From: a virus
Virus record (IMG/VR): IMGVR_UViG_3300030099_007345
Coordinates: 1 to 36,804 of that record
DNA length: 36,804 nt
Reading direction: 5' to 3' (one strand)
Of this stretch, positions 26,540 to 36,584 are shown piece after piece; within the stretch, counting starts at the first letter, position 1, and every line of letters starts with the position of its first letter. Under the pieces are notes generated by a model. It was not told where the DNA came from. It searched no databases and saw only the letters and a list, made by a program, of their open reading frames with translations. The position numbers and the translations under genes are program-made.

Positions 26540-26547
26540 TATTTATC
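26540..26547 (-). promoter_or_regulatory. candidate late promoter (GATAAATA) for gp25-gp6-gp7 operon
   Basis: GATAAATA on the minus strand matches T4 late TATAAATA at 7 of 8 positions, 21-28 nt upstream of the gp25 ATG. It sits between a terminator and the first baseplate gene, exactly where an operon promoter is needed. Confidence 0.6.
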
Positions 26548-26770: not shown

Positions 26771-27523
26771 CTATATGATTCTAGTTTTTTCATGACCTAC
26801 TCTGCACTGCGGATCAATCCATATTTCAAAACCAGCTTTAATTGCATCAAGACAAAATGATACGTCTTCACCGCACATGTCTTGCACCTCTCCAGAGTCA
26901 AATACTTGCATCTGTGGAGCAAACCATGGATACTTCATCTCAGGGTGCTCAAATACTCCTTTCTTGATAAGTAACCATCCAAATCCAGAATAATCAACAG
27001 TAAATGGTTTACGACGTTTGATGATACCCTCTACCATCTCATGATTCATAACCCCACCATTTTCCTTAAAATCATCTTCTTCTAACCAATGTGCACATGA
27101 TGTAGTTCTACCATCCTCAGTTGCATACCACCCACCTGCGATATCTTTCTGCATAGCAAGCACACGGTAGAAAGTTTCATTTGTAAATACTATATCACTG
27201 TCAATCCACAGTTGATAATCATATTCTAACTTACCATCCCAAGGTAATTGATCAGGTCCTCGTAAAACATTTGCACCAAGACATTTACATCTTGCAAAGT
27301 TCACCATGGAACTATAGTCTTGTGCTATCTGTATATTTGCTCCATTTTGCACTAACTCAAAACAGAGTGATACGAAATTCTTTAGAAAAACGTATGAAAC
27401 TCCTCTGCCAGGTAAACAGAATACAATACTTTTACCTTGTAAAAGTTTTTTTGCTGCTTCAATGTCAAATTCATCTTTTTTCTCATGGGGTGGTTTAGAC
27501 ACCACCTTAAATCCTTTAGCCAT
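26771..27523 (-). CDS. glycosyltransferase (GT-A fold, DxD-type)
   Basis: A 250-aa protein. IVFCLPGRGVSYVFLKNF near residues 33-50 fits the nucleotide-binding start of a GT-A domain. The decisive motif is LWIDSDIVF at residues 104-112, a D-x-D metal/nucleotide-sugar site, followed by AGGWYATEDG near 129-138. Late elements MCGEDVSFCLDAIKAG and IWIDPQCRVGHEKT (about 217-248) match the E-D-x-x-x-C-x-x-x-x-x-x-G and terminal H of GT2-like enzymes. Such genes are frequent in cyanophages. It lies in the carbamoyltransferase/SGNH/sulfotransferase cluster, so it probably acts on the same phage or host glycan. Donor and acceptor cannot be read from sequence. Confidence 0.8.
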   Translation of the reverse strand: MAKGFKVVSKPPHEKKDEFDIEAAKKLLQGKSIVFCLPGRGVSYVFLKNFVSLCFELVQNGANIQIAQDYSSMVNFARCKCLGANVLRGPDQLPWDGKLEYDYQLWIDSDIVFTNETFYRVLAMQKDIAGGWYATEDGRTTSCAHWLEEDDFKENGGVMNHEMVEGIIKRRKPFTVDYSGFGWLLIKKGVFEHPEMKYPWFAPQMQVFDSGEVQDMCGEDVSFCLDAIKAGFEIWIDPQCRVGHEKTRII

Positions 27524-27550
27524 AATTAGAGTTCAGTCATAATCATTATA

Positions 27551-27566
27551 ACACTTTATATAGTGT
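27551..27566. repeat. short hairpin at SGNH hydrolase stop
   Basis: ACACT and AGTGT flank TTATAT across the TAA of the SGNH gene. It is followed on the minus strand by no T-run, so it is more likely an mRNA 3'-end or processing structure, or chance, than a terminator. Confidence 0.3.
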
Positions 27567-28215
27567 CTATCAACTCAATGATTTTATTTGCTATTACTTT
27601 GTGTCCTTCTGCACTTGGATGCCCACCAGATAGACCATTTGCATAATAATTTGGGTTTTCTTTAGTATGTTGTAATAAACCCATATGCATCCATACTGGT
27701 TCATAATCTTTACATAAACCTCTCCAATATCCGTTTCCAAATTTATAGAACTTTTCTGGTTTTCTGATTGATGGGTCAAAGTGATCTGCTACTAATGAAA
27801 TATACTTTTGACCAACACTCTTACAATATGCATCAAATAGAAAAATGTTTTTCCACATATTTTCCACACCTAACACTTCATTATATACTTTTGTATAATA
27901 ATCTCTATGAGTTTGCTTCAACTCAGGTGGTATGAATGTAGGTTGGATTGTAAATCTACAAATTTTTTCATTTACTTGATAATACTCCATTCTTGACGCT
28001 ACTGTAAATTGTATGATAACTACGTCTGGATTATAATTTTGAAGATACTTGATAGCATTCCTAACAATATTATCATTACTAATACCACGTTCTGATAAGT
28101 TATAATGTTGACATCCATAATGATTAGAAACAAGAGTGCTATATCTCTCATTCAACCTATCTTCTAATTCATCCCCCCATGTGATGCTACACCCACTAAA
28201 AAATAGTGACATCAT
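27556..28215 (-). CDS. SGNH/GDSL-type hydrolase (paralogue 1)
   Basis: A 219-aa protein. Block I is FSGCSITWGDEL with the probable nucleophile Ser10. Block II-like NIVRN lies near residues 49-53. Block V is GGHPSAEGHKVIA with the probable catalytic His199. The usual Asp three residues before that His is Ser here, so the triad may be a Ser-His dyad or use another acid. SGNH enzymes cleave or transfer acyl groups on sugars and lipids. The start overlaps the carbamoyltransferase stop by 20 nt. The pairing of a carbamoyltransferase with an SGNH protein is a recurrent bacterial arrangement linked to polysaccharide decoration. No signal peptide is visible, so it would act in the cytoplasm. Confidence 0.75.
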   Translation of the reverse strand: MMSLFFSGCSITWGDELEDRLNERYSTLVSNHYGCQHYNLSERGISNDNIVRNAIKYLQNYNPDVVIIQFTVASRMEYYQVNEKICRFTIQPTFIPPELKQTHRDYYTKVYNEVLGVENMWKNIFLFDAYCKSVGQKYISLVADHFDPSIRKPEKFYKFGNGYWRGLCKDYEPVWMHMGLLQHTKENPNYYANGLSGGHPSAEGHKVIANKIIELIDTI

Positions 28216-29572
28216 ACTTCATCTCAAATAATTTTGCATCTTCGATTGTATTTACCATAGGTTTTCCTTTTATATTCAGTGATGTGTTTAACAATACAGG
28301 ACAACCAGTACGAGCGTACCATGCCTCTAGAATCGGTCTCAAGATGCTTATTGATTCTTTAGGAACCGTTTGTACCCTCGCACTATTATCGACGTGTATA
28401 CAAGCAGGTATCGCCTTTGGTTGCTTACACTTATAGACATAGGACATGTATCTCGATGAGGAAGGCATATCAAAGTAGTCCTGACAATGCTCCTCCAAAA
28501 CTGCAGGGGCAAAGGGTCTGAATTTATCTCGTCGTTTGATTTCATTTACTAAGTCTTTTGTGCTCGCTTGCCTTGGATCCGCCAGTAAACTTCGATTACC
28601 AAAAGCACGAGGACCATACTCAGCACGGCCATTCGCAACCCCCACGACTCTTTTTTCGAGGAGTTCATCTACAACTCTCCTTGGATCACATAACTTTTGT
28701 ATATTATATCCTAGGTAAGGATTGAAATCAACCTTGCCACCATATGCAAGACATGCTGCCCCCAGAGCACCCCCTGCGTCGCCAGGACAAGGCATAATCC
28801 AAAGATTATACATTTCCCTCAACCCTGTGTTTACAACACAATTCAAGGCAACACCACCACCATAACAGATGTTATTACTATACTTTGCTGCTTTTGCGAA
28901 TATAGTGTTTAGTTCTAATTGAAGTATTCTCTCAGCACTCTTTGCGATATCACACTTATCATAATTTCCAATCCTCGCTCCTTTATGGTTGTTTCTATGC
29001 AATTGTCGCTCAACCACATTCATATGGGTTGGATTACCATATGCTGCCATTCCCATAAAGATATACTCTTCATCTAAAGGACGCAATCCCGCCCACTTGG
29101 TAAGTGCAGAATACCATAACCCTATAGATTGCGGATACCACTGCGACCATACCTTCTTGTATACTGCCTTTCCTTCTTTGTACTTCGCAGTCCATATAGA
29201 TGTAGTATCCCACTCACCTATACTGTCTACTACCACACAAGCTGCTTCTTCAAACTGTGAAGTCTGAAACGTTGCTGCTGCGTGTGATTTATGATGACTA
29301 TGATATTCAGTGGGTTTAAGAGATAGGTGTCTTTCCCTATACCACGCTTTCTGCCCTGCAAAAAATTGTCTTGTTTTTTTCAACCATGGTCTTTCGTAAA
29401 ACGCTATCTTACCGTCAGTTGATAAAAGTCTTGCTGTAGATGCTGCTGTGACATCTAAATGCTTGTCATGTTTCTTTTTAGAGTATCTTTCTGAGTGTGT
29501 TGCATAACAAATCTTTCCATCATTGACAACAGCTACTGCTGCGTCATGAAAACCTTCACTAAAACCAATCAT
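28196..29572 (-). CDS. NodU/TobZ-family carbamoyltransferase
   Basis: A 458-aa protein. The N-terminal ASKHA/Kae1-like domain starts MIGFSEGFHDAAVAVVNDGK and carries ERYSKKKHD near residues 28-36 and HHKSHAA near 91-98 (metal-binding His). GGGVALNC near 235 and PGDAGGALGAA near 261 are the nucleotide-binding loops. The C-terminal carbamoyl-adenylate domain has NGRAEYGPRAFGNRSLLADP at about 312-331 and NTSLNIKGKPMV near 430, both family hallmarks. The reaction is transfer of carbamoyl from carbamoyl phosphate via ATP to a sugar hydroxyl. At 458 aa it is shorter than the usual 550-600 aa; the domain core looks intact. The gene follows a 29-aa peptide by 3 nt and overlaps an SGNH hydrolase. The substrate is unknown. 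Confidence 0.9.
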   Translation of the reverse strand: MIGFSEGFHDAAVAVVNDGKICYATHSERYSKKKHDKHLDVTAASTARLLSTDGKIAFYERPWLKKTRQFFAGQKAWYRERHLSLKPTEYHSHHKSHAAATFQTSQFEEAACVVVDSIGEWDTTSIWTAKYKEGKAVYKKVWSQWYPQSIGLWYSALTKWAGLRPLDEEYIFMGMAAYGNPTHMNVVERQLHRNNHKGARIGNYDKCDIAKSAERILQLELNTIFAKAAKYSNNICYGGGVALNCVVNTGLREMYNLWIMPCPGDAGGALGAACLAYGGKVDFNPYLGYNIQKLCDPRRVVDELLEKRVVGVANGRAEYGPRAFGNRSLLADPRQASTKDLVNEIKRRDKFRPFAPAVLEEHCQDYFDMPSSSRYMSYVYKCKQPKAIPACIHVDNSARVQTVPKESISILRPILEAWYARTGCPVLLNTSLNIKGKPMVNTIEDAKLFEMKYDVTIF

Positions 29573-29575
29573 AAA

Positions 29576-29665
29576 TTAATCGTCATCTTCATAGATATAT
29601 GGGTCTTGGCGACGCAATTTCCATAATTTGTATTCGCCCACTATCCATTCCCATAATTTTTTCAT
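29576..29665 (-). CDS. 29-aa peptide coupled to the carbamoyltransferase gene
   Basis: From ATG 29665 to TAA 29576, too short for most gene callers. The ATG overlaps the TGA of the sulfotransferase gene as ATGA, and the stop is 3 nt before the carbamoyltransferase ATG. It begins MKKLWEWIVGEYKLWKLRRQ and ends with an acidic D-P-Y-I-Y-E-D-D-D tail. The W/L/K pattern suggests an amphipathic, possibly membrane-surface, helix. Bacterial carbamoyltransferase operons often carry a small DUF5989-type protein at this place; this peptide has a similar position and a similar M-K-K-x-W-x-x-x start but no clear membrane span, so relation is only inferred. Confidence 0.6.
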   Translation of the reverse strand: MKKLWEWIVGEYKLWKLRRQDPYIYEDDD

Positions 29666-30582
29666 AGTAATTCCCATTGGTAAGGTATATATCCAAATTT
29701 TTCATCAAAATTTTTATATACCCAATTCAATTTCTCTCTACCTTCTTGTAGATCATCAGATGACAAATCTTGCATATCGCTTCCCCATTGATGTCGTTGA
29801 TGTTTTATTTTTGGACTTTTTGTTCCTCTCTCTGGGTAATATGCGTTAGTAAACATTTCGTCAATTTCATGTTCTATAAAGTTTGATAGTGATGTGGGAT
29901 CTTCCCATGCCTCCTCCATAATAACAGGATATACTTTATCAAATACACTCCATGACTCAAATATAGAAACATAATCAGGAATGAAGAAACGTGATGGTTT
30001 GACAAGTTGATTTTTCCAATATGAAATGCTATCGGGATATTTCCTCTTTATTTCTTGCCCGAATTTATTTTTTTGCTCATTTATAAAATCTTCGTTCACA
30101 TACTTGAGTTGAGGATTATTATCGACTGTCAAATTAATATAATGACTTGAAATTTGAGAATATGACCTTCTGACTGGATGTCTCCAAATCGTAGTCACAC
30201 GCACATCAAATTCTTCTTGTAAAATGGGTGCAATTTGCTCTATGAATTCTCGTGGTAAATCACTATTGGCATTTGAGAAATCGCTTACACCTTTATATCC
30301 ATCTTTTACACAACTCTTCATATATTCAATATACCACTCTAAAGTAGTGTTTTTTCTTACAAAACTCATTGTCTTACCTTCTTTATTACGTCTGTGCTTA
30401 TGTTCTGTATGCCAGTAATGATTTGCATGATCAGGTTTGTAAATTGTCTCATAAATGTAATACAACATATTATTTTCTGTTGTCTCACCTGCATGGCAAT
30501 ATTTTACTTTTTGAAAGGTTCTTGCAAGAGGTTTAGTGGCAGACCATCCTACCCCTGCATTAATGTGCAATACTGGTTTCAT
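29662..30582 (-). CDS. sulfotransferase paralogue B
   Basis: A 306-aa protein when started at ATG 30582, where ATGA overlap with the upstream stop and a GGGGGA site favour this start over the ATG at 30591. GVGWSATKPL at residues 10-19 is the 5'-phosphosulfate-binding loop. VTTIWRHPVRRSYS near 128-141 is the 3'-phosphate-binding region (R-x-P-x-x-R-x-x-S). The C-terminal block AYYPERGTKSP...HQWGSDMQDL near residues 245-275 is shared with the other paralogues here. It should transfer sulfate from PAPS to a glycan, lipid or protein acceptor in the cytoplasm. It is coupled to paralogue A upstream and to the 29-aa peptide downstream. Confidence 0.75.
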   Translation of the reverse strand: MKPVLHINAGVGWSATKPLARTFQKVKYCHAGETTENNMLYYIYETIYKPDHANHYWHTEHKHRRNKEGKTMSFVRKNTTLEWYIEYMKSCVKDGYKGVSDFSNANSDLPREFIEQIAPILQEEFDVRVTTIWRHPVRRSYSQISSHYINLTVDNNPQLKYVNEDFINEQKNKFGQEIKRKYPDSISYWKNQLVKPSRFFIPDYVSIFESWSVFDKVYPVIMEEAWEDPTSLSNFIEHEIDEMFTNAYYPERGTKSPKIKHQRHQWGSDMQDLSSDDLQEGREKLNWVYKNFDEKFGYIPYQWELL

Positions 30583-31520
30583 TTCCCCCACATATCTGGA
30601 ATATAACCAAAGGTTTCATAAAATTCATCATATACGAAACTAATACGCTTGTAAAGGTATTTGTACAACTGATTATCTAATGTAACTATGTCAGATCCCC
30701 ACTGATCATACAAATAATCATAATGTGGTGCATTTACTCCCATATCTGGATAATATGCGTTTTCGTGAATTTTTTTTATTGGAAAATCTAAAAAATTAGA
30801 GAGTGGTTCAATTTTACCTGCCCAAAACTCCTCCATAACAATCATATGAACTCTTTCTTTACCAAATACACTAGACCATTTTTTATAAATGTCCGAATAG
30901 TAAACATTCGCCTCCATCTGACCTTTTACCCATTTTTTAATCATATTGACGGGATCTCTATGTCCTTCAAGTTGAGATTTTCTATTAGAAGCAGAAAATA
31001 ATCTCCTCACAGGGTCTCTAAAGATCATAGTTACTTTTACATCAAAATTATTCAATAATTCGCCAGAAATGCAACTTATGAATTTTTTTGGTAGTGCTGC
31101 GTTGCTATTTGTAAAATCAGCAACCCCAACGTAATCATCTTTTATATAATTGTAATGTTCTAAGTAATAATCAATATATTTTTGTAATTTAAGATTTTTT
31201 GAGAACAAATCACCATTAAATTTAACGTATTTTGACCATTTGGTGAGTATGAGAGGTTTATGACATTCCCTAAACTCTTTTGACTTCATTTTTTCCATAT
31301 ACGCCAACATTTCTGATTTATTTCTATCTCTCTTTATGATTTCCCCTCTTTTTACTAAATTTTTCTCTATATTACTATCTTTTGTAAATAATCCCCAAAG
31401 ATAACCATTTGCTTTTGTGTGCCCTGTATGAACATACATATTATCAAGTGATAAAGTATACCACAAAGGAGTTGTTGCAGAAAAACAAGTCCCTACGTTT
31501 AATAATAAGACTGGTTTCAT
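30579..31520 (-). CDS. sulfotransferase paralogue A, head to head with paralogue C
   Basis: A 313-aa protein when started at ATG 31520, which has an AGAGGA ribosome binding site at good spacing. An upstream ATG at 31550 would add ten residues but has weaker support. GTCFSATTPL at residues 10-19 is the phosphosulfate loop (Cys-Phe replaces the Gly-Trp of its paralogues). VTMIFRDPVRRLFS near 161-175 is the 3'-phosphate site. AYYPDMGVNAPH...DQWGSDIVTL near the C-terminus matches the paralogues. The start codon shares two bases with the plus-strand ATG of paralogue C. It is the first gene of the minus-strand surface-modification operon. The promoter is not obvious and must lie inside gene C. Confidence 0.75.
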   Translation of the reverse strand: MKPVLLLNVGTCFSATTPLWYTLSLDNMYVHTGHTKANGYLWGLFTKDSNIEKNLVKRGEIIKRDRNKSEMLAYMEKMKSKEFRECHKPLILTKWSKYVKFNGDLFSKNLKLQKYIDYYLEHYNYIKDDYVGVADFTNSNAALPKKFISCISGELLNNFDVKVTMIFRDPVRRLFSASNRKSQLEGHRDPVNMIKKWVKGQMEANVYYSDIYKKWSSVFGKERVHMIVMEEFWAGKIEPLSNFLDFPIKKIHENAYYPDMGVNAPHYDYLYDQWGSDIVTLDNQLYKYLYKRISFVYDEFYETFGYIPDMWGK

Positions 31521-31524
31521 GAAA
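31515..31524. other. palindrome joining two divergent start codons
   Basis: TTTCATGAAA is a perfect 10-bp palindrome. Its centre CATG supplies the ATG of paralogue A (minus) and of paralogue C (plus), each followed by an AAA codon. There is no intergenic space, so ribosome binding sites and promoters of each gene lie within the other. Confidence 0.85.
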
Positions 31525-32427
31525 GTTCCTCTAATTATATGTGCAGGCACTGGTTGGAGTGCGACAAGTCCACTTTACATGACTTTACAGTGTTCCAACA
31601 AATGTGCTCACGTAGGATTGAAAAAAGAAGACCATCTTTTGTATCATTTATACAGTAAAAACGCTTGGGAGTGGAGAAAACCTGATTATGAGAATCTGAT
31701 AAGAGATTCTATGAGTCCAGTTTGGAAATACGAGTGGGGAAGACAAAGTAAATATGCATTTCATCAAAATCTTGACGAAATTCACGAATTATATCAAAAA
31801 CCAACTTTAGAGACTTATATTAAATATTATACTCGCCATTATGAGCGAATAAAACACGAATATTCATATGTTGCTGATTTTTCAAACAGTATTGCTCAAA
31901 TACCACTAAATTTTTTAGAAAAAATTGCCCCAAAACTAAAAAAACACTTTGAAATCAAGGTTTTGATAATTTTTAGAGATCCAGTCCGTAGATTATACAG
32001 CGAATTGTCTCACAAATATCAAAATGATGAAAATTTACGCAAAAATCATCCAACTTCCAAACATTTTTACTGGAATTATCTCACAAAAGGTAATTTTGAC
32101 GAAAATTGTGAGTTTGTAAAAAGATATAAGCGTTTTAAATCTGTTTTCAACACACTAGCTGTGGTGTCAGAAGACTTGTGGGGAAGGAAAAATGATCAAG
32201 TTGCAAAACTTAGTAATTTTTTACAATATGACATCAAAAATCTATGGCCAAACTGCTATTATCCTGAGTTGGGAACAAAAGCACCACACTATGAAAACCT
32301 TCGTGACCAATATGATTCAGATTTGGAGGATTTGACCCATGATGACTTAGTATATGGGCGTAAAAACCTTGCAAAGTACTATGATGAGTGGTATGATGAG
32401 TTTGGAACAACGCCTTGGAAGTGCTGA
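31519..32427 (+). CDS. sulfotransferase paralogue C
   Basis: A 302-aa protein. GTGWSATSPL at residues 10-19 is the phosphosulfate loop. VLIIFRDPVRRLYS near 148-161 is the 3'-phosphate-binding region. CYYPELGTKAPH...DQYDSDLEDL near 248-275 and the FGTTPWKC end complete the pattern shared with paralogues A and B. The only upstream ribosome-binding candidate is a weak AAGA, in contrast to the strong site of gene A on the other strand, so translation of C may be lower. It is convergent with the second SGNH hydrolase; a hairpin lies in the junction. It is the only plus-strand gene between minus-strand genes in this part, which suggests inversion of a duplicated copy or separate insertion. Confidence 0.75.
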   Translation: MKVPLIICAGTGWSATSPLYMTLQCSNKCAHVGLKKEDHLLYHLYSKNAWEWRKPDYENLIRDSMSPVWKYEWGRQSKYAFHQNLDEIHELYQKPTLETYIKYYTRHYERIKHEYSYVADFSNSIAQIPLNFLEKIAPKLKKHFEIKVLIIFRDPVRRLYSELSHKYQNDENLRKNHPTSKHFYWNYLTKGNFDENCEFVKRYKRFKSVFNTLAVVSEDLWGRKNDQVAKLSNFLQYDIKNLWPNCYYPELGTKAPHYENLRDQYDSDLEDLTHDDLVYGRKNLAKYYDEWYDEFGTTPWKC

Positions 32428-32441
32428 TATTACTCCAAGGC
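32412..32441. terminator. possible bidirectional terminator hairpin at convergent junction
   Basis: GCCTTGGA (32412-32419) and TCCAAGGC (32434-32441) form an 8-bp perfect stem with a 14-nt loop, spanning the stop of paralogue C and ending 2 nt before the SGNH stop. Tails are only moderately T-rich (ATTAATTTT on the plus strand), so termination strength is uncertain. Confidence 0.5.
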
Positions 32442-32442
32442 A

Positions 32443-33138
32443 TTAATTTTCACGTTTTACAATATTTAATAAGTGATCTGCTATAAGTTGATGACCAATT
32501 GTACTAGGATGTGATCCAGTTAGGTCACTATCATTGTATTTTTCTGTAAAATTACGGTCTACAATCATTCTAAGTGATGATACTTCAATATTTTTTGATA
32601 AATTGTACCAAAAATTTTTTCTATAGTACTTGTTTTTACCAACAGGGATGTAATCAAGTGTCAAAAAGTGCACTTTACACTTGTCCTTGAGATAATTTTT
32701 TATAAAAAACTTATTTTTCCAATAGTTATCTAAACTTTTTGGTTCACTTTGTATAAATTCCCAATATGCATTGTGTGTCTCTTCTTTAATATCCGCATCA
32801 ATTTGTCCAGTTTTACTGAAAAGATCACCATGACTCTTTTCTTGAGGCATACTCATATATTCACCTTGTTTATCATACCAACCCCACCTGCGATAATTAC
32901 TAAATTGAATGAATGCAGTATCACACTCATTGCCCGTTTCAAACCATTCAACTACATTTCTAACAATCCAATCATTGCATGCTCCGTTTCTGGAAACATT
33001 ATCATGAGTCATACCTAATTTTTCTGATACTAAAGTGGAGAACCTTTGTTTCTCTCTCTTCTCTTGATCTTTTTCTAATCCTTCCAGTTCTGCACCATGT
33101 GTGAAACTATCACCACAGAAAAACAAATCTACTTTCAT
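32443..33138 (-). CDS. SGNH/GDSL-type hydrolase (paralogue 2)
   Basis: A 231-aa protein. Block I is FFCGDSFTHGAEL with probable nucleophile Ser11, block II-like NGACNDWIVRN lies near residues 51-61, and block V is GSHPSTIGHQLIA with probable His210. As in paralogue 1, the residue three before the His is not Asp (it is Thr), although Asp203 and Asp205 are close. The shared layout F-x-x-G-x-S-x-T-x-G-x-E-L, I-V-R-N, QF near the third block and H-P-S-x-x-G-H shows the two hydrolases are homologous though well diverged. It is convergent with sulfotransferase C and divergent from the plus-strand leader RNA, whose promoter lies only about 5 bp beyond its start codon. Confidence 0.75.
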   Translation of the reverse strand: MKVDLFFCGDSFTHGAELEGLEKDQEKREKQRFSTLVSEKLGMTHDNVSRNGACNDWIVRNVVEWFETGNECDTAFIQFSNYRRWGWYDKQGEYMSMPQEKSHGDLFSKTGQIDADIKEETHNAYWEFIQSEPKSLDNYWKNKFFIKNYLKDKCKVHFLTLDYIPVGKNKYYRKNFWYNLSKNIEVSSLRMIVDRNFTEKYNDSDLTGSHPSTIGHQLIADHLLNIVKREN

Positions 33139-33142
33139 AGGG

Positions 33143-33171
33143 TTGACAACTTTTATTACTTGATATATAAT
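33143..33171 (+). promoter_or_regulatory. consensus sigma-70 (early-type) promoter
   Basis: TTGACA at 33143-33148, exactly 17 bp spacing, TATAAT at 33166-33171: both hexamers match the bacterial consensus fully. Transcription should start near 33178. In T4-like cyanophages early genes use host sigma-70 promoters while late ones use the TATAAATA type, so this unit is probably early. Confidence 0.85.
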
Positions 33172-33392
33172 AATTTATGTAAGGGGGCGACGGTTCTCTT
33201 ACAGGGAGTGACTGAATAACCCTGTTGGAATTAGGCGGGGTAATGTAAACGGTCAGGGGTGGTGCCCGCTTCTTCGGAAGAACTTCTTACCAGAAGGACT
33301 GTTGTTGTAATGTACTAATTTTCGCACTAGCGATTCCCATTACTTGTAGGTAAAATGTATTCCTACCTCCCACCTCACACTATGGAGTTTTG

Positions 33393-33470
33393 ATGCTATT
33401 ATTTTTATTGATTTGTATAATAGCGGTGTTGTACTTTGTAGTGTTCTTAAACAAGTTTGATCCTCATTGA
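33393..33470 (+). CDS. 25-aa single-span membrane peptide, possible leader peptide
   Basis: ATG 33393 follows a GGAG site (33384-33387) at 5-nt spacing. The first 19 residues are almost entirely hydrophobic (MLLFLLICIIAVLYFVVF), followed by a short polar end N-K-F-D-P-H. This is the composition of a one-span membrane microprotein. The last codons and the TGA fall inside the terminator hairpin, so a ribosome finishing the peptide would cover the 5' arm. It resembles the next peptide at both ends, so they are probably paralogues. No known family is recognised; the small one-span photosystem subunits are similar only in size. Confidence 0.6.
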   Translation: MLLFLLICIIAVLYFVVFLNKFDPH

Positions 33471-33500
33471 TAGAAGGGGGGTCAAACTTTTTTTCTTTTT
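33455..33500 (+). terminator. strong intrinsic terminator or attenuator
   Basis: The 5' arm at 33455-33465 starts GTTTGATCC; the 3' arm at 33477-33487 ends GGGTCAAAC. They form about 11 bp with two G-U pairs, then TTTTTTTCTTTTT (33488-33500). It lies after the 25-aa peptide gene and before the 29-aa peptide and sulfotransferase genes, so it either ends a small transcript or controls read-through into the operon. Confidence 0.8.
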
Positions 33501-33506
33501 ATTATT

Positions 33507-33596
33507 ATGCCTTTATTCCTAATCGTTCTTGGTGCCTCTTCTGTAGGTGCTGCCATTGCTTTATACATAATTCGTAAGTACGATCCTCATGCATGA
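33507..33596 (+). CDS. 29-aa single-span membrane peptide coupled to sulfotransferase D
   Basis: ATG 33507 to TGA 33594-33596; the TGA overlaps the ATG of sulfotransferase D (ATGA). The product starts MPLFLIVLGASSVGAAIALY, a hydrophobic span with small residues (G-A-S-S-V-G-A-A) that favour helix packing, and ends I-I-R-K-Y-D-P-H-A. The end matches the K-F-D-P-H of the preceding peptide, and the DNA is also similar there (AAGTnnGATCCTCAT in both). No Shine-Dalgarno is seen; the upstream region is a T-rich tract. It may serve both as a membrane peptide and as a coupling device for gene D. Confidence 0.6.
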   Translation: MPLFLIVLGASSVGAAIALYIIRKYDPHA

Positions 33597-33597
33597 G
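33586..33597. repeat. 12-bp perfect palindrome over a stop/start overlap
   Basis: CTCATGCATGAG covers the end of the 29-aa peptide gene, its TGA and the ATG of sulfotransferase D. It may be a mere by-product of the codons, or an operator or hairpin that affects coupling. Confidence 0.4.
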
Positions 33598-34696
33598 AAA
33601 ATTACTTTTATTTTGTGGGTGGGGTTGGACAGCATCATCACCCCTGATATATACTCTTCAACGATATTCTAAGTATGCTCATTTTGGATATTCAAAAACT
33701 TTTAGATATCTAGCATACCCTTATTATAAAGATGGAAAATTGCTTTTCAAGTCTTCACCTAGTGTACCATTTTTACTTGAAAAACATATTGAAGGGACAT
33801 GGGAAAATTTTAGGTCTCTTGAACCATCTAGTCATAGAATGAATACCACTGAGGATTTACAACCACTCAGTGATTTTTCTCTTGATCATGCAAAAAGACT
33901 TATAGAAGGTGAACCTTCTATATCAAAATTCATGGACTTCTACATCGCACTTCACGATCACGTAGTCTCTAAAGGTTATAAGTCTGTGGGTCACTGTGGT
34001 TGTTATAAAACATTTAAGCGTGGTTGGAACTATTATGATAAAGATGCTGATGGCGAATTAGGACAAAACGCAATACGTGAATTTATAAAAATACTTTTAT
34101 CTGAATTTGAGGTGAAGTGTTTGTTTTTAGTGAGAGATCCTATTCGTCGTGCCTTTGGTAAATATCTAAATTGGATGCAAGGGATATCAGACCTTAGATT
34201 TCGTAATGTTTTCAAGAAAGATTTTTTCCTCCCTCATGAGTTAGAAGTTGCAGATTATGTTACGAAGATTGATTATTGCTATAACACATATGGTAAAGAT
34301 AATGTTCATGTCGCTGTCATGGAAGAACTATGGGAAGGTGATGGATCTGCTAAGAAAAAACTTTCGCAGTTCTTGGATCATCCTATTGACACCCTGTGGA
34401 AAAACCTGTATGCACCTGATATAGGGCACTTTGTAAAATATGATAAGGATGTTCCCTGTCAAGCATATGGACAGAACTTAGTTGAACTTAAGTCTGATGT
34501 GTACTATGAATTGAAGAACAAGTATCAATATGTCTATGATAATTGGAGAAATAAGTTTGGATCACTACCTCTACACTGGGGAAAACACATAGATTATGAA
34601 AAGGATAAGTCAATATTACAAGAGTGGGAGTTCATCACACCTAGTTGTGGTTATGAGGGCGTTTCTCAATATAACCCACATGACAAAAGAAGTTGA
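33593..34696 (+). CDS. sulfotransferase paralogue D (divergent, 367 aa)
   Basis: GWGWTASSPL at residues 9-18 is the phosphosulfate loop and CLFLVRDPIRRAFG near 176-189 the 3'-phosphate region. It has a larger insert between them (residues about 40-120) than the other paralogues, and its C-terminal block is altered (LYAPDIGHFVKYDKDVP instead of YYP-x-x-G-x-x-A-P-H), though FGSLPLHWGKH remains. A 40-residue tail follows. It starts at the ATGA overlap with the 29-aa membrane peptide and ends overlapping the kinase-like gene (TTGA). The substrate is unknown; its separation into another operon suggests a different acceptor or timing. Confidence 0.7.
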   Translation: MRKLLLFCGWGWTASSPLIYTLQRYSKYAHFGYSKTFRYLAYPYYKDGKLLFKSSPSVPFLLEKHIEGTWENFRSLEPSSHRMNTTEDLQPLSDFSLDHAKRLIEGEPSISKFMDFYIALHDHVVSKGYKSVGHCGCYKTFKRGWNYYDKDADGELGQNAIREFIKILLSEFEVKCLFLVRDPIRRAFGKYLNWMQGISDLRFRNVFKKDFFLPHELEVADYVTKIDYCYNTYGKDNVHVAVMEELWEGDGSAKKKLSQFLDHPIDTLWKNLYAPDIGHFVKYDKDVPCQAYGQNLVELKSDVYYELKNKYQYVYDNWRNKFGSLPLHWGKHIDYEKDKSILQEWEFITPSCGYEGVSQYNPHDKRS

Positions 34697-35724
34697 CTGT
34701 ACCATTAGATCCATATATTAATTACTGTCAATCGAAAAGGTACACGATAATGAAGGAGTATATCGTATTTTCTAAAGTGTCTAGAAATATGGCAAGTGAC
34801 ACTACTAAAAAATATATGATGGAAAAATACGGAAGAGTGATACATTCAGATCTAACTGACTTGAATCCAGAGGAGGAGGCATTTCTGAATGAGTATAATG
34901 AAATATATTTTGAACGTATGAACAGTAAACTCAAGACTCAATTAGTTCATATGAAGAATAAGATAGGAATCTTTAGTGATCCTGTTTTTCCTAAGTCCTT
35001 CCCTTGGATAATCCCCACATTCACTTATGATTATCAGAAAGCAGATCACTACACTAAACCAAATGTATTCACCATCACTCAAGAGTTTCTACGTGGTAGA
35101 CCTTTGGATGATAGGGACTATGATGATGAAACTAAGTTTTGGCAATATAAACATTATGAAAAATTTCATGTAAATGACCCTACAGTCAATTGGGGTCCTA
35201 AAGATATTAATATGTCTAATCTTATGGTTACTGATGATAGACCTGGTTTCAAGACTGATAACACCCATAAAAAAATATGTTATGTCGATAATGAAGGGTT
35301 CACTAATTTTGAGTTCACTGAACGTGATCACTTCAGATATAGAGCGATGTGTGCTGTCAATCCGAATATAGGTGAGTATCTACCAAATAGAGATTGTAAC
35401 ACACCTTATGAGATTATGAGAGACGATTGGAGCACTCATGATGAAGTCAAAGTATTCTTCAAGAGATTATTCTTCTATGAGAGGGTCATTTTTAATTTTA
35501 CATTTATTGATCTCTTAGATGAAGAGGCACTTAGAAAAATAGAGAGTTTCGCTGAAATTACAAAAAACTTCAAGCACAGAATGTTAGTTTTCCAAAACTG
35601 GTTTCATCATGAGGGGCAAAGGGTTATGGAGATGACTGATGAATATGTGCAACCAAAGAGATTTGTAATCAATTTAGATAGGGAAAAATACTCAGTGTTA
35701 TTCGGAGACATATCAATCAAGTGA
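34693..35724 (+). CDS. kinase-fold-like protein (APH-type catalytic motifs)
   Basis: A 343-aa protein if started at the TTG 34693 that overlaps the upstream TGA; an ATG at 34750, with an AAAAGG stretch before it, is an alternative giving 324 aa. Residues 166-179 (NWGPKDINMSNLMV) resemble the catalytic loop H-G-D-x-x-x-x-N-x-L of aminoglycoside-phosphotransferase-type kinases, with Asp171 and Asn176. YVDNEGF at 197-203 resembles the following metal-binding D-x-E segment (Asp199). The N-terminal lobe shows no clear glycine loop or lysine, so this is fold-level inference only. It sits between two sulfotransferases with overlapping stops and starts, so a role in the same pathway (a sugar kinase, or making the sulfate donor) is possible. 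Confidence 0.5.
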   Translation: MTVPLDPYINYCQSKRYTIMKEYIVFSKVSRNMASDTTKKYMMEKYGRVIHSDLTDLNPEEEAFLNEYNEIYFERMNSKLKTQLVHMKNKIGIFSDPVFPKSFPWIIPTFTYDYQKADHYTKPNVFTITQEFLRGRPLDDRDYDDETKFWQYKHYEKFHVNDPTVNWGPKDINMSNLMVTDDRPGFKTDNTHKKICYVDNEGFTNFEFTERDHFRYRAMCAVNPNIGEYLPNRDCNTPYEIMRDDWSTHDEVKVFFKRLFFYERVIFNFTFIDLLDEEALRKIESFAEITKNFKHRMLVFQNWFHHEGQRVMEMTDEYVQPKRFVINLDREKYSVLFGDISIK

Positions 35725-36584
35725 CAAAGAAACCCCTTATGATTTTCAGTTTTGGAGGTTGGAGTGCTTCTACACCTCTCTACAGAACTCTAATTAAAAA
35801 CAAAGTTGTGCGAAGAAATAGTATCAAAGAACCAAATATAATACCTGCGATCATATCAAATAATCCTGATATGATATCTGATAAGTATAGAGATTTGAAG
35901 AGAAAAAATGTAGATGATTACCAAAAATTTGAATGCACAACAGTAGATGCATATATTGATTGGTTACTGAGACATCATACTTCTAAGTGTATGGGAGTTT
36001 CTGATGCTACTAATACTCACATCTTCTTTGATGTCAAGGATATTGCAACATTTGCTTCAAAGTTCAAAGAGGCATTTCAAGTCAAGGTTCTGATAATTTG
36101 CAGAGAACCTGTAAAGAGACTCTTCTCACATTTGAACTCTATAGACAATATTGGTCATTCTCTAGAGAAGTATGGTCAGAATAAAAGACTGGAACTTGTC
36201 ATGCCATACCTCGACAAACCTGTACCGATGCAATTTCCTGGTCAAGGTTGGGATTATAAACAGCAAGCATATGAACCATATATGGAAAGCAACTACCCAG
36301 AGATGATTGCCAATTGGTCAAAATACTTTGACACTCATGTCATATGCATGGAGGATCTATGGGGCGATAAGAATTCCGCATTAGAGAAACTCAACACCTT
36401 CTTAGGATCTTCGATTACTCAACTCACACCTAATGTATATTATCCAGATCTAGGTCCTAATGCCCCCCATCATATAGGATTGAAAGACCAGTGGAGTTCA
36501 GATACAGAATTTATTACAAAGAAAAACTATGATCTTGCAAGAGAAAAACTTGATTGGGTCTATCAAAGTCTTCCTTACTGGTAG
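35721..36584 (+). CDS. sulfotransferase paralogue E
   Basis: A 287-aa protein with a GTG start whose last two bases lie in the upstream TGA (GTGA). GGWSASTPL at residues 12-20 is the phosphosulfate loop. VLIICREPVKRLFS near 122-135 is the 3'-phosphate region (RDP becomes REP). VYYPDLGPNAPH...DQWSSDTEF near 247-270 matches paralogues A-C. It ends shortly after the final helix (LPYW) and lacks the F-G-x-x-P-x-x-W tail of A-D. It is the last gene of the plus-strand operon; a weak terminator follows within 10 nt. Confidence 0.75.
   Translation: MTKKPLMIFSFGGWSASTPLYRTLIKNKVVRRNSIKEPNIIPAIISNNPDMISDKYRDLKRKNVDDYQKFECTTVDAYIDWLLRHHTSKCMGVSDATNTHIFFDVKDIATFASKFKEAFQVKVLIICREPVKRLFSHLNSIDNIGHSLEKYGQNKRLELVMPYLDKPVPMQFPGQGWDYKQQAYEPYMESNYPEMIANWSKYFDTHVICMEDLWGDKNSALEKLNTFLGSSITQLTPNVYYPDLGPNAPHHIGLKDQWSSDTEFITKKNYDLAREKLDWVYQSLPYW

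Follow-up and report, generated by a model that had tools for sequence, protein, structure and literature searches.

A shuffling array of sulfotransferase-fold genes beside the baseplate genes of a T4-like cyanophage lineage

Why does a phage carry five homologous sulfotransferase-fold genes next to its baseplate genes, and what do their products do? This question is raised by a 36,804-nucleotide stretch of virus DNA (IMG/VR record IMGVR_UViG_3300030099_007345, positions 1 to 36,804; hereafter the window), a 36.8-kb fragment whose remaining genes encode a T4-type baseplate wedge and long tail proteins. A preliminary description, made from the letters of the window alone, had proposed that five sulfotransferase paralogues (A through E) act with a carbamoyltransferase, two SGNH proteins, a glycosyltransferase, and a kinase-like protein as a complete-looking toolkit for modifying a glycan of either the host cell or the virion. 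The five genes span positions 29662-36584:

29662-30591, minus strand: paralogue A, sulfotransferase-fold; likely start ATG 30582; loop GVGWSATKPL; motif RHPVRR
30579-31550, minus strand: paralogue B; likely start ATG 31520; loop GTCFSATTPL; motif RDPVRR
31519-32427, plus strand: paralogue C, the most widely kept copy and the one modelled; loop GTGWSATSPL; motif RDPVRR
33593-34696, plus strand: paralogue D, 3' of a manA RNA; loop GWGWTASSPL; motif RDPIRR
35721-36584, plus strand: paralogue E; loop GGWSASTPL; motif REPVKR

The homology of these five open reading frames (ORFs) was confirmed by search and alignment. With C as the query of the window, A, B, D, and E are recovered at E-values from 6e-42 to 3e-16. 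The proteins are 26-41% identical to one another, and when all five are aligned, 23 columns are invariant and identity to A is 28-38%. Only A, C, and D match in full the loop first described as G-x-G-W-[ST]-A-[TS]-x-P-L; B reads GTCFSATTPL and E reads FGGWSASTPL. The R-[DHE]-P-x-x-R motif is present in 5/5 paralogues, and the C-terminal Y-x-P-x-x-G ... Q block, said to be mostly shared, is readily recognised in four of them (A, B, C, and E) and has diverged in D.

Taken singly, A through E give no score above a Pfam cut-off and no meaningful PHROG match, and C gives no NCBIfam match. The link to sulfotransferases needs profile and structure comparisons. An AlphaFold2 model of C, built from 98 aligned rows, has a predicted local distance difference test (pLDDT) score of 94 and a predicted template-modelling score (pTM) of 0.92. 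When this model was compared with the PDB by Foldseek, eleven matches were obtained at E <= 0.001, all of them sulfotransferases that use 3'-phosphoadenosine 5'-phosphosulfate (PAPS), with probability 1.00. They include 3-OST-3, TPST2, an olefin-synthase sulfotransferase domain, 3rnl, NDST1, and SULT7A1, with template-modelling (TM) scores up to 0.63. Annotated sulfotransferases are also among the first matches in a viral structure library, and a 101-member family profile matches 3rnl at 2e-6 and 3-OST-5 at 4e-5. As far as a predicted model can settle the matter, C has the PAPS-sulfotransferase fold. The absence of a P-loop sulfotransferase fold, which the preliminary description had named as grounds for giving up its assignment, is not what the model of C reveals.

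Known sulfotransferases hold PAPS through two elements: a 5'-phosphosulfate-binding (PSB) loop, which carries a catalytic Lys or Arg, and a 3'-phosphate-binding (3'-PB) motif. The second element is well preserved in the family to which A through E belong. In its 3'-PB motif, R-x-P-x-x-R-x-x-S, R153 and R158 are each present in 149/149 proteins and S161 in 142/149; the motif aligns with 3rnl and 3-OST-5, and an acidic residue ahead of it aligns with the Glu of 3rnl. P155, E218, and Y288 are invariant in 149/149, and the PSB-loop Thr/Ser is found in 147/149. The RDPxxRxxS motif and a PSB-loop Thr at the helix start are likewise features of 3-OST-1, -3, and -5, NDST1, tyrosylprotein sulfotransferases, and bacterial 3rnl. 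The family differs from these enzymes in that it is only 12-16% identical to them in structural matches, has its own C-terminal Y-x-P-x-x-G ... DQ-W block, and has replaced the PSB Lys/Arg. At this position, three before the Thr, the residue is W in 99 members, F in 30, H in 14, and Y in 5, with Lys/Arg in 0/148 full-length members that have a residue there, the equivalence being taken from the predicted strand-loop-helix rather than from an experimental superposition. The canonical cyanophage sulfotransferases (S-SCSM1, S-SRM01; Pfam Sulfotransfer_3), which share the fold class and also come from T4-like cyanophages, read GLPRSGST at the same site and retain the Arg. Unlike the array family, they are located elsewhere, with one match per phage genome, and a profile comparison between the array family and these two proteins was not significant.

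Because the PSB Lys/Arg is replaced in every member, the family lacks one defining feature and is best called "sulfotransferase-fold transferases", not proven sulfotransferases. The preliminary description had assigned the activity outright and missed this point. It had also listed the loss of catalytic residues in all copies as an outcome that should count against it; such a loss is seen at the PSB Lys/Arg, and not at the 3'-PB motif, the PSB-loop Thr, or the other invariant residues. Among A through E, D has Gly for the 3'-PB Ser. It also has an insertion ahead of the 3'-PB block and reads HCG where most members read DFS/N. Possibly its acceptor is altered or the enzyme is impaired.

The replaced residue can be explained in several ways. 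Since the Lys/Arg used by known sulfotransferases is lost, the array members could be catalytically dead proteins that bind 3'-phosphoadenosine 5'-phosphate (PAP) or a glycan. We consider this improbable: no substitution of R153, P155, R158, E218, or Y288 is seen across 149 proteins, many phages have retained the frames intact, and the whole resembles a working active site. A second explanation is that the fold now serves a different donor and transfers a group other than the sulfuryl of PAPS, with the aromatic residue shaping a new donor pocket, for example for a nucleotide-activated phosphoramidate. The uniform replacement of the PSB residue would fit, as would weak matches to the Campylobacter O-methyl phosphoramidate transferase model of NCBIfam (NF058596), with best E-values of 3e-4 for single members and 4e-5 for one contig. 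However, the phosphoramidate match is local, spanning positions 273-354 of the 596 in the model at 15.9 bits against a cut-off of 600, and the near-invariant 3'-phosphate-binding Arg and Ser fit PAP(S) better than a cytidine diphosphate (CDP) donor. For these reasons a changed donor seems unlikely. The NF058596 lead was traced across 30 records and stayed weak; the match with E 4e-5 in its record lies at 11107-11367 of L028 (contig 3300035157_001307).

A third explanation is that the proteins are PAPS sulfotransferases whose loop Lys has been relocated, as in WNK kinases, to position 17 in the first turn of the next helix or to position 36. A basic residue occupies exactly one of these two positions in 142/149 proteins, both in four, and neither in three, one of which is a truncated ORF; it lies at 17 in the clade of A and otherwise at 36. 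Position 36 is followed by Glu (E37) in 123/149, with Ala in B and Thr in D. E37 falls in the segment that follows strand 2, where 3-OST has its catalytic base, and may be its counterpart. On the tree, however, the exchange requires about two changes at position 17 and about three at position 36, and these few events are not independent statistical support. The relocated basic residue is thus a lead, not proof, and we judge relocation rather unlikely.

How widespread is this family? It lacks a name, and two pattern scans of 2.9 million viral contigs and a phage collection place at least 157 members on 43 virus records; four further scans yielded additional members with the same loop type. The number of genes per locus ranges from one to nine; the maximum is reached on a 19-kb contig, and three more contigs have eight genes each. 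Members are mostly just 30-40% identical to C, and single members mostly escape Pfam, PHROGs, and NCBIfam, with some passing the Pfam Sulfotransfer_1 cut-off. That the array belongs to a large, shuffling family had been overlooked in the preliminary description. No relatives were found in 84,980 bacterial and archaeal genomes by two scans, whose reach is close relatives, such that a distant cellular source is possible, and none in 72,556 plasmids by one scan. A profile search of five cultured cyanophages likewise found no family member.

Whether A through E arose by expansion in phages or by transfer from hosts, a question that the preliminary description proposed to settle by phylogeny, can now be addressed. 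In the tree each of the five proteins has a clade of its own, in most cases well supported, that also contains relatives from other phages, at best identities of 84-89% for C, 75-77% for A, 71% for B, 80% for E, and <=56% for D. A through E are thus ancient paralogues whose duplications predate the split of these phages. Recent duplications are found in some other contigs, for example L029 and L036. Because all known relatives are viral, the tree and the genome and plasmid scans support expansion within phages, with no sign of recent host transfer.

The order of genes around the array suggests how it changes. The order gp6-gp25-GT-SGNH-CARB, in which GT is the glycosyltransferase-like gene and CARB the carbamoyltransferase gene, is kept in ∼20 contigs and is followed by the array of sulfotransferase-fold family (S) genes in both orientations. 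In a comparison of ten relatives, GT and CARB are highly conserved, whereas S genes vary or are missing. The most constant S gene is C, and its head-to-head partner comes variously from the A, B, or D clade. In the window the two genes share a start-codon junction:

31518-31521: CATG, the overlapping start codons shared by B (minus strand) and C (plus strand), a swap junction in relatives

The start-to-start distance between C and its partner is −2 (shared CATG) or +10 in eleven contigs. This fixed distance, despite the changing partner gene, points to cassette swapping at 5' ends or start codons. The shared CATG leaves no intergenic space; similar sites occur at L009 ∼5038 and L017 ∼5226, and the 10-base spacing is found elsewhere with a different partner. 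GT is near gp25 also in cultured cyanophages where no family member was found, and the array therefore looks inserted upstream of GT. Taken together, the family is phage-borne and tandemly expanded, and its members appear to be gained, lost, and swapped as cassettes.

A further part of the locus that the preliminary description missed is its manA RNA and promoter architecture:

33143-33171, plus strand: perfect sigma-70 promoter TTGACA-17-TATAAT, ahead of the manA RNA
33180-33376, plus strand: manA RNA (RF01745), an orphan cis-regulatory RNA and riboswitch candidate; Rfam 128.9 bits against a gathering score of 55.2
33393-33470, plus strand: small ORF for a 25-amino-acid hydrophobic peptide, MLLFLLICIIAVLYFVVFLNKFDPH
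33453-33489, plus strand: terminator-like hairpin followed by a T run, in the interval between the manA RNA and D; possible attenuator
33507-33596, plus strand: small ORF for a 29-amino-acid hydrophobic peptide, MPLFLIVLGASSVGAAIALYIIRKYDPHA; overlaps the start of D and is conserved in relatives
27545-27573, minus strand: strong sigma-70-like promoter TTGATA-17-TATAAT, upstream of GT
26540-26546, minus strand: T4-type late promoter core ATAAATA, upstream of gp25

The first five of these elements are all in the 454-base gap upstream of D, between an SGNH gene and D (33139-33592). The manA RNA match is full-length (positions 1-192) and starts nine bases past the promoter, in a 5' untranslated region setting. 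The manA motif is an orphan riboswitch candidate already known from cyanophages (PMC2864571; also PMC9964418). Twelve further manA RNAs were found in related arrays. A TTGACA-17-TATAAT-like promoter is present at 11/11 manA RNAs examined, and for 7/11 S, SGNH, or CARB genes come first among the large genes that follow or appear soon after. The reported motif precedes genes for mannose/fructose metabolism, nucleotide synthesis, ibpA, and photosynthesis (PMC2864571), whereas here it precedes sulfotransferase-fold, SGNH, and carbamoyltransferase genes, a new gene setting. Two families of hydrophobic peptides of 25-31 amino acids (MLLFLLICI...NKFDPH and MPLFLIVLGAS...RKYDPHA), with similar KFDPH/KYDPH tails, occur in the window, L009, L016, L018, L033, and L036, most of them directly 3' of manA RNAs.

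The promoters bear on the question of whether the enzymes act on the cell or on the virion. In cyanomyoviruses, early genes are believed to be transcribed by the host polymerase in unmodified form with sigma-70, and late genes from NATAAATA (PMC2984593). A strong sigma-70 promoter precedes GT in 25/26 lineage copies. The late core ATAAATA precedes gp25 in 19/23 lineage copies, at −27/−28 where printed, and is found before GT in 0/26, before CARB in 1/30, and before S genes in 7/142. Since sigma-70-type promoters occur in the set and late motifs are mostly confined to the baseplate side, we infer that the array is expressed early or middle, which favours action on the cell over decoration of the virion. 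In the window as a whole, ATAAATA occurs 4 times against 17 expected by chance, always on the minus strand, and three of the four copies (3432, 12540, 26540) are shortly upstream of structural genes.

The competing idea is that the enzymes decorate the phage's own virion, such as tail-fibre or baseplate glycans, and thereby vary the surface chemistry or adhesion of the particle. The array does adjoin baseplate genes gp25-gp6-gp7 and long tail proteins, and a glycosyltransferase is beside gp25 in many cyanophages. However, cyanophages in which no family member was found have the same GT and baseplate genes, and the distribution of late motifs, together with the sigma-70-like promoter of the manA RNA, is not what a set of virion genes should have. 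Virion decoration therefore appears distinctly unlikely, and the promoter evidence favours the host-side alternative already raised in the preliminary description.

The neighbouring genes indicate what kind of chemistry could accompany the array:

26771-27523, minus strand: glycosyltransferase-like protein (GT), phrog_1574; a cyanophage backbone gene, 92-97% identical in the lineage
27556-28215, minus strand: SGNH-hydrolase-like protein in the GT-CARB interval; fixed place, 53-68% identical across relatives
28196-29572, minus strand: carbamoyltransferase (CARB), NodU/TobZ type; Carbam_trans_N and _C; 88-90% identical across the lineage
32443-33138, minus strand: SGNH-hydrolase-like protein, GDSFTHG ... 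HPSTIGH; sub-threshold Pfam match
34693-35724, plus strand: kinase-like protein in the D-E interval, KDINMSN ... VDNEGF motif; one homologue in the closest relative

The carbamoyltransferase is as first described and is of NodU/TobZ type by Pfam, with 110.9 bits (cut-off 24) and 177.6 bits (cut-off 27) for Carbam_trans_N and Carbam_trans_C. It lies, together with one SGNH gene and GT, just outside the interval 29576-36584 in which the preliminary description had placed its partner genes. The SGNH motifs are present, although the Pfam scores are below the cut-off; by pattern, among 89 SGNH proteins of the related loci, the GxS block is seen in 79/89, the ND block in 57/89, and HPSxxxH in 55/89. 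SGNH genes are expanded, with 90 in 33 contigs. The copy between GT and CARB is 53-68% identical across relatives versus 88-97% for its neighbours, which suggests fast or diversifying evolution. The idea of a complete toolkit was overstated: GT belongs to the cyanophage backbone and is found next to gp25 even where the array is missing, and the kinase-like protein offers a kinase-like motif only, with a model at pLDDT 35. Some related arrays carry an HpcH/HpaI aldolase (L013 3452-4219) or 2-oxoglutarate-Fe(II) oxygenases (L031 16116-16718 and L036 9196-9711 by Pfam; L029 7635-8252 by eye, with no Pfam match).

The host can be approached through the phage genes. Genes like gp25, gp6, and gp7, as expected of a T4-type baseplate, were detected in the window. 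The gp6 protein is nearest, among annotated phages, to Synechococcus T4-like phages at ∼50% identity, with a closer match of 64% to 'Marine virus AG-345-D19'. That record derives from plate AG-345, one that Berube et al. list under the 'extracellular sort gate' (PMC6122165). One AG-345-D19 contig holds a family member and psbA together (related particle accession MH319720), and the isolate closest in psbA is Prochlorococcus phage P-SSM2 (85%). No psbA is found within the window fragment itself, so that the photosynthesis gene is contributed by MH319720 only, and ARAGORN finds no tRNA in the window. From the gp6 matches and the psbA of the related particle, the lineage, made up of uncultured ocean viruses, is read as Prochlorococcus-type T4-like cyanophages.

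The reading we favour is that A through E are cytosolic group-transferases with the PAPS-sulfotransferase fold that, together with CARB and the SGNH (acyl)esterases, would decorate a glycan inside the infected Prochlorococcus-type cell. The set would be transcribed from host sigma-70-type promoters, and the manA RNA may tune its expression to a sugar-related metabolite. Most plausibly, the three kinds of enzyme change groups on one glycan, the likeliest target being the lipopolysaccharide (LPS) or exopolysaccharide of the host envelope. LPS serves as a receptor for some cyanophages (PMC4390846). The result could be a surface that second phages do not recognise, or envelope properties that are altered during infection. 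PAPS would have to be supplied by the host, because a search of 17 related records, each a fragment, found no adenosine 5'-phosphosulfate (APS) kinase, whereas a control cyanobacterium has one. We infer PAPS as the donor, sulfate as the group, a glycan as the acceptor, the host envelope as the target, and superinfection exclusion as the benefit. Early decoration of an infected-cell glycan by the sulfotransferase-fold array, CARB, and SGNH proteins, taken as a whole, has in our estimation slightly less than an even chance of being correct. The glycan decoration first proposed is thus supported in outline, with sulfate as the transferred group, and the substrate, unproven.

Several points weigh against it. 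The residue replaced in the PSB loop has a counterpart in NDST1, Lys614, that was proposed as the catalytic acid (PMC3733922). A few members weakly resemble the O-methyl phosphoramidate transferase model, which makes another transferred group possible. The Lipase_GDSL_2 scores of the SGNH proteins are 23.2 and 14.1 against a cut-off of 32.9. Finally, the promoter argument is consensus-based, and the array genes are mostly without a strong promoter of their own. A literature search found no report on a phage sulfotransferase together with superinfection and LPS.

Comparison with known systems gives some context for decoration of the host cell glycan. The Nod-factor decoration set includes NodU/NolO carbamoyltransferases and the NodH sulfotransferase. 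The island shares with it the pairing of carbamoyl- and sulfotransferase-fold enzymes on one glycan, and CARB matches the 'Nol-like' phrog_1601 at 1e-92; the island differs in being phage-borne, arrayed, and shuffled, with no NodABC genes for a chitin-oligosaccharide backbone recognised among the genes examined. The LPS clusters of S-SSM7 and P-SSM2 are also glycan genes of T4-like cyanophages with putative function, and S-SSM7 has several carbamoyltransferases (PMC3037559). Those clusters are near hli03 or phoH, whereas the array here consists of GWSAT-family genes and sits at GT-gp25. Varied end-decorators on a fixed core would, by analogy, resemble serotype-type variation. A broader proposal would be that the family is a new sulfotransferase-fold branch without the universal PSB Lys/Arg, in which the base is relocated to 17 or 36 or a non-sulfuryl group is transferred, and whose shuffling arrays of up to nine genes, partly under an orphan riboswitch candidate, supply interchangeable glycan decorations in one phage lineage. 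We offer this tentatively and consider it doubtful as a whole.

Sulfotransferases have been noted in phage genomes before, and their biological function 'remains unclear' (PMC10580990). The locus makes such a role testable, because it offers a defined family, a predicted active site with one departure, conserved partners, and a regulatory RNA. Should they prove active, the enzymes would be an instance of the sulfotransferase fold doing chemistry without the standard catalytic residue. The context of carbamoyl-, acyl-, and sulfo-type genes may also be a clue to the ligand of the manA RNA, if this RNA is a riboswitch. If the enzymes decorate the envelope of infected Prochlorococcus-type cells, then the surface chemistry of an ocean phototroph of major importance would be tied to competition between phages.

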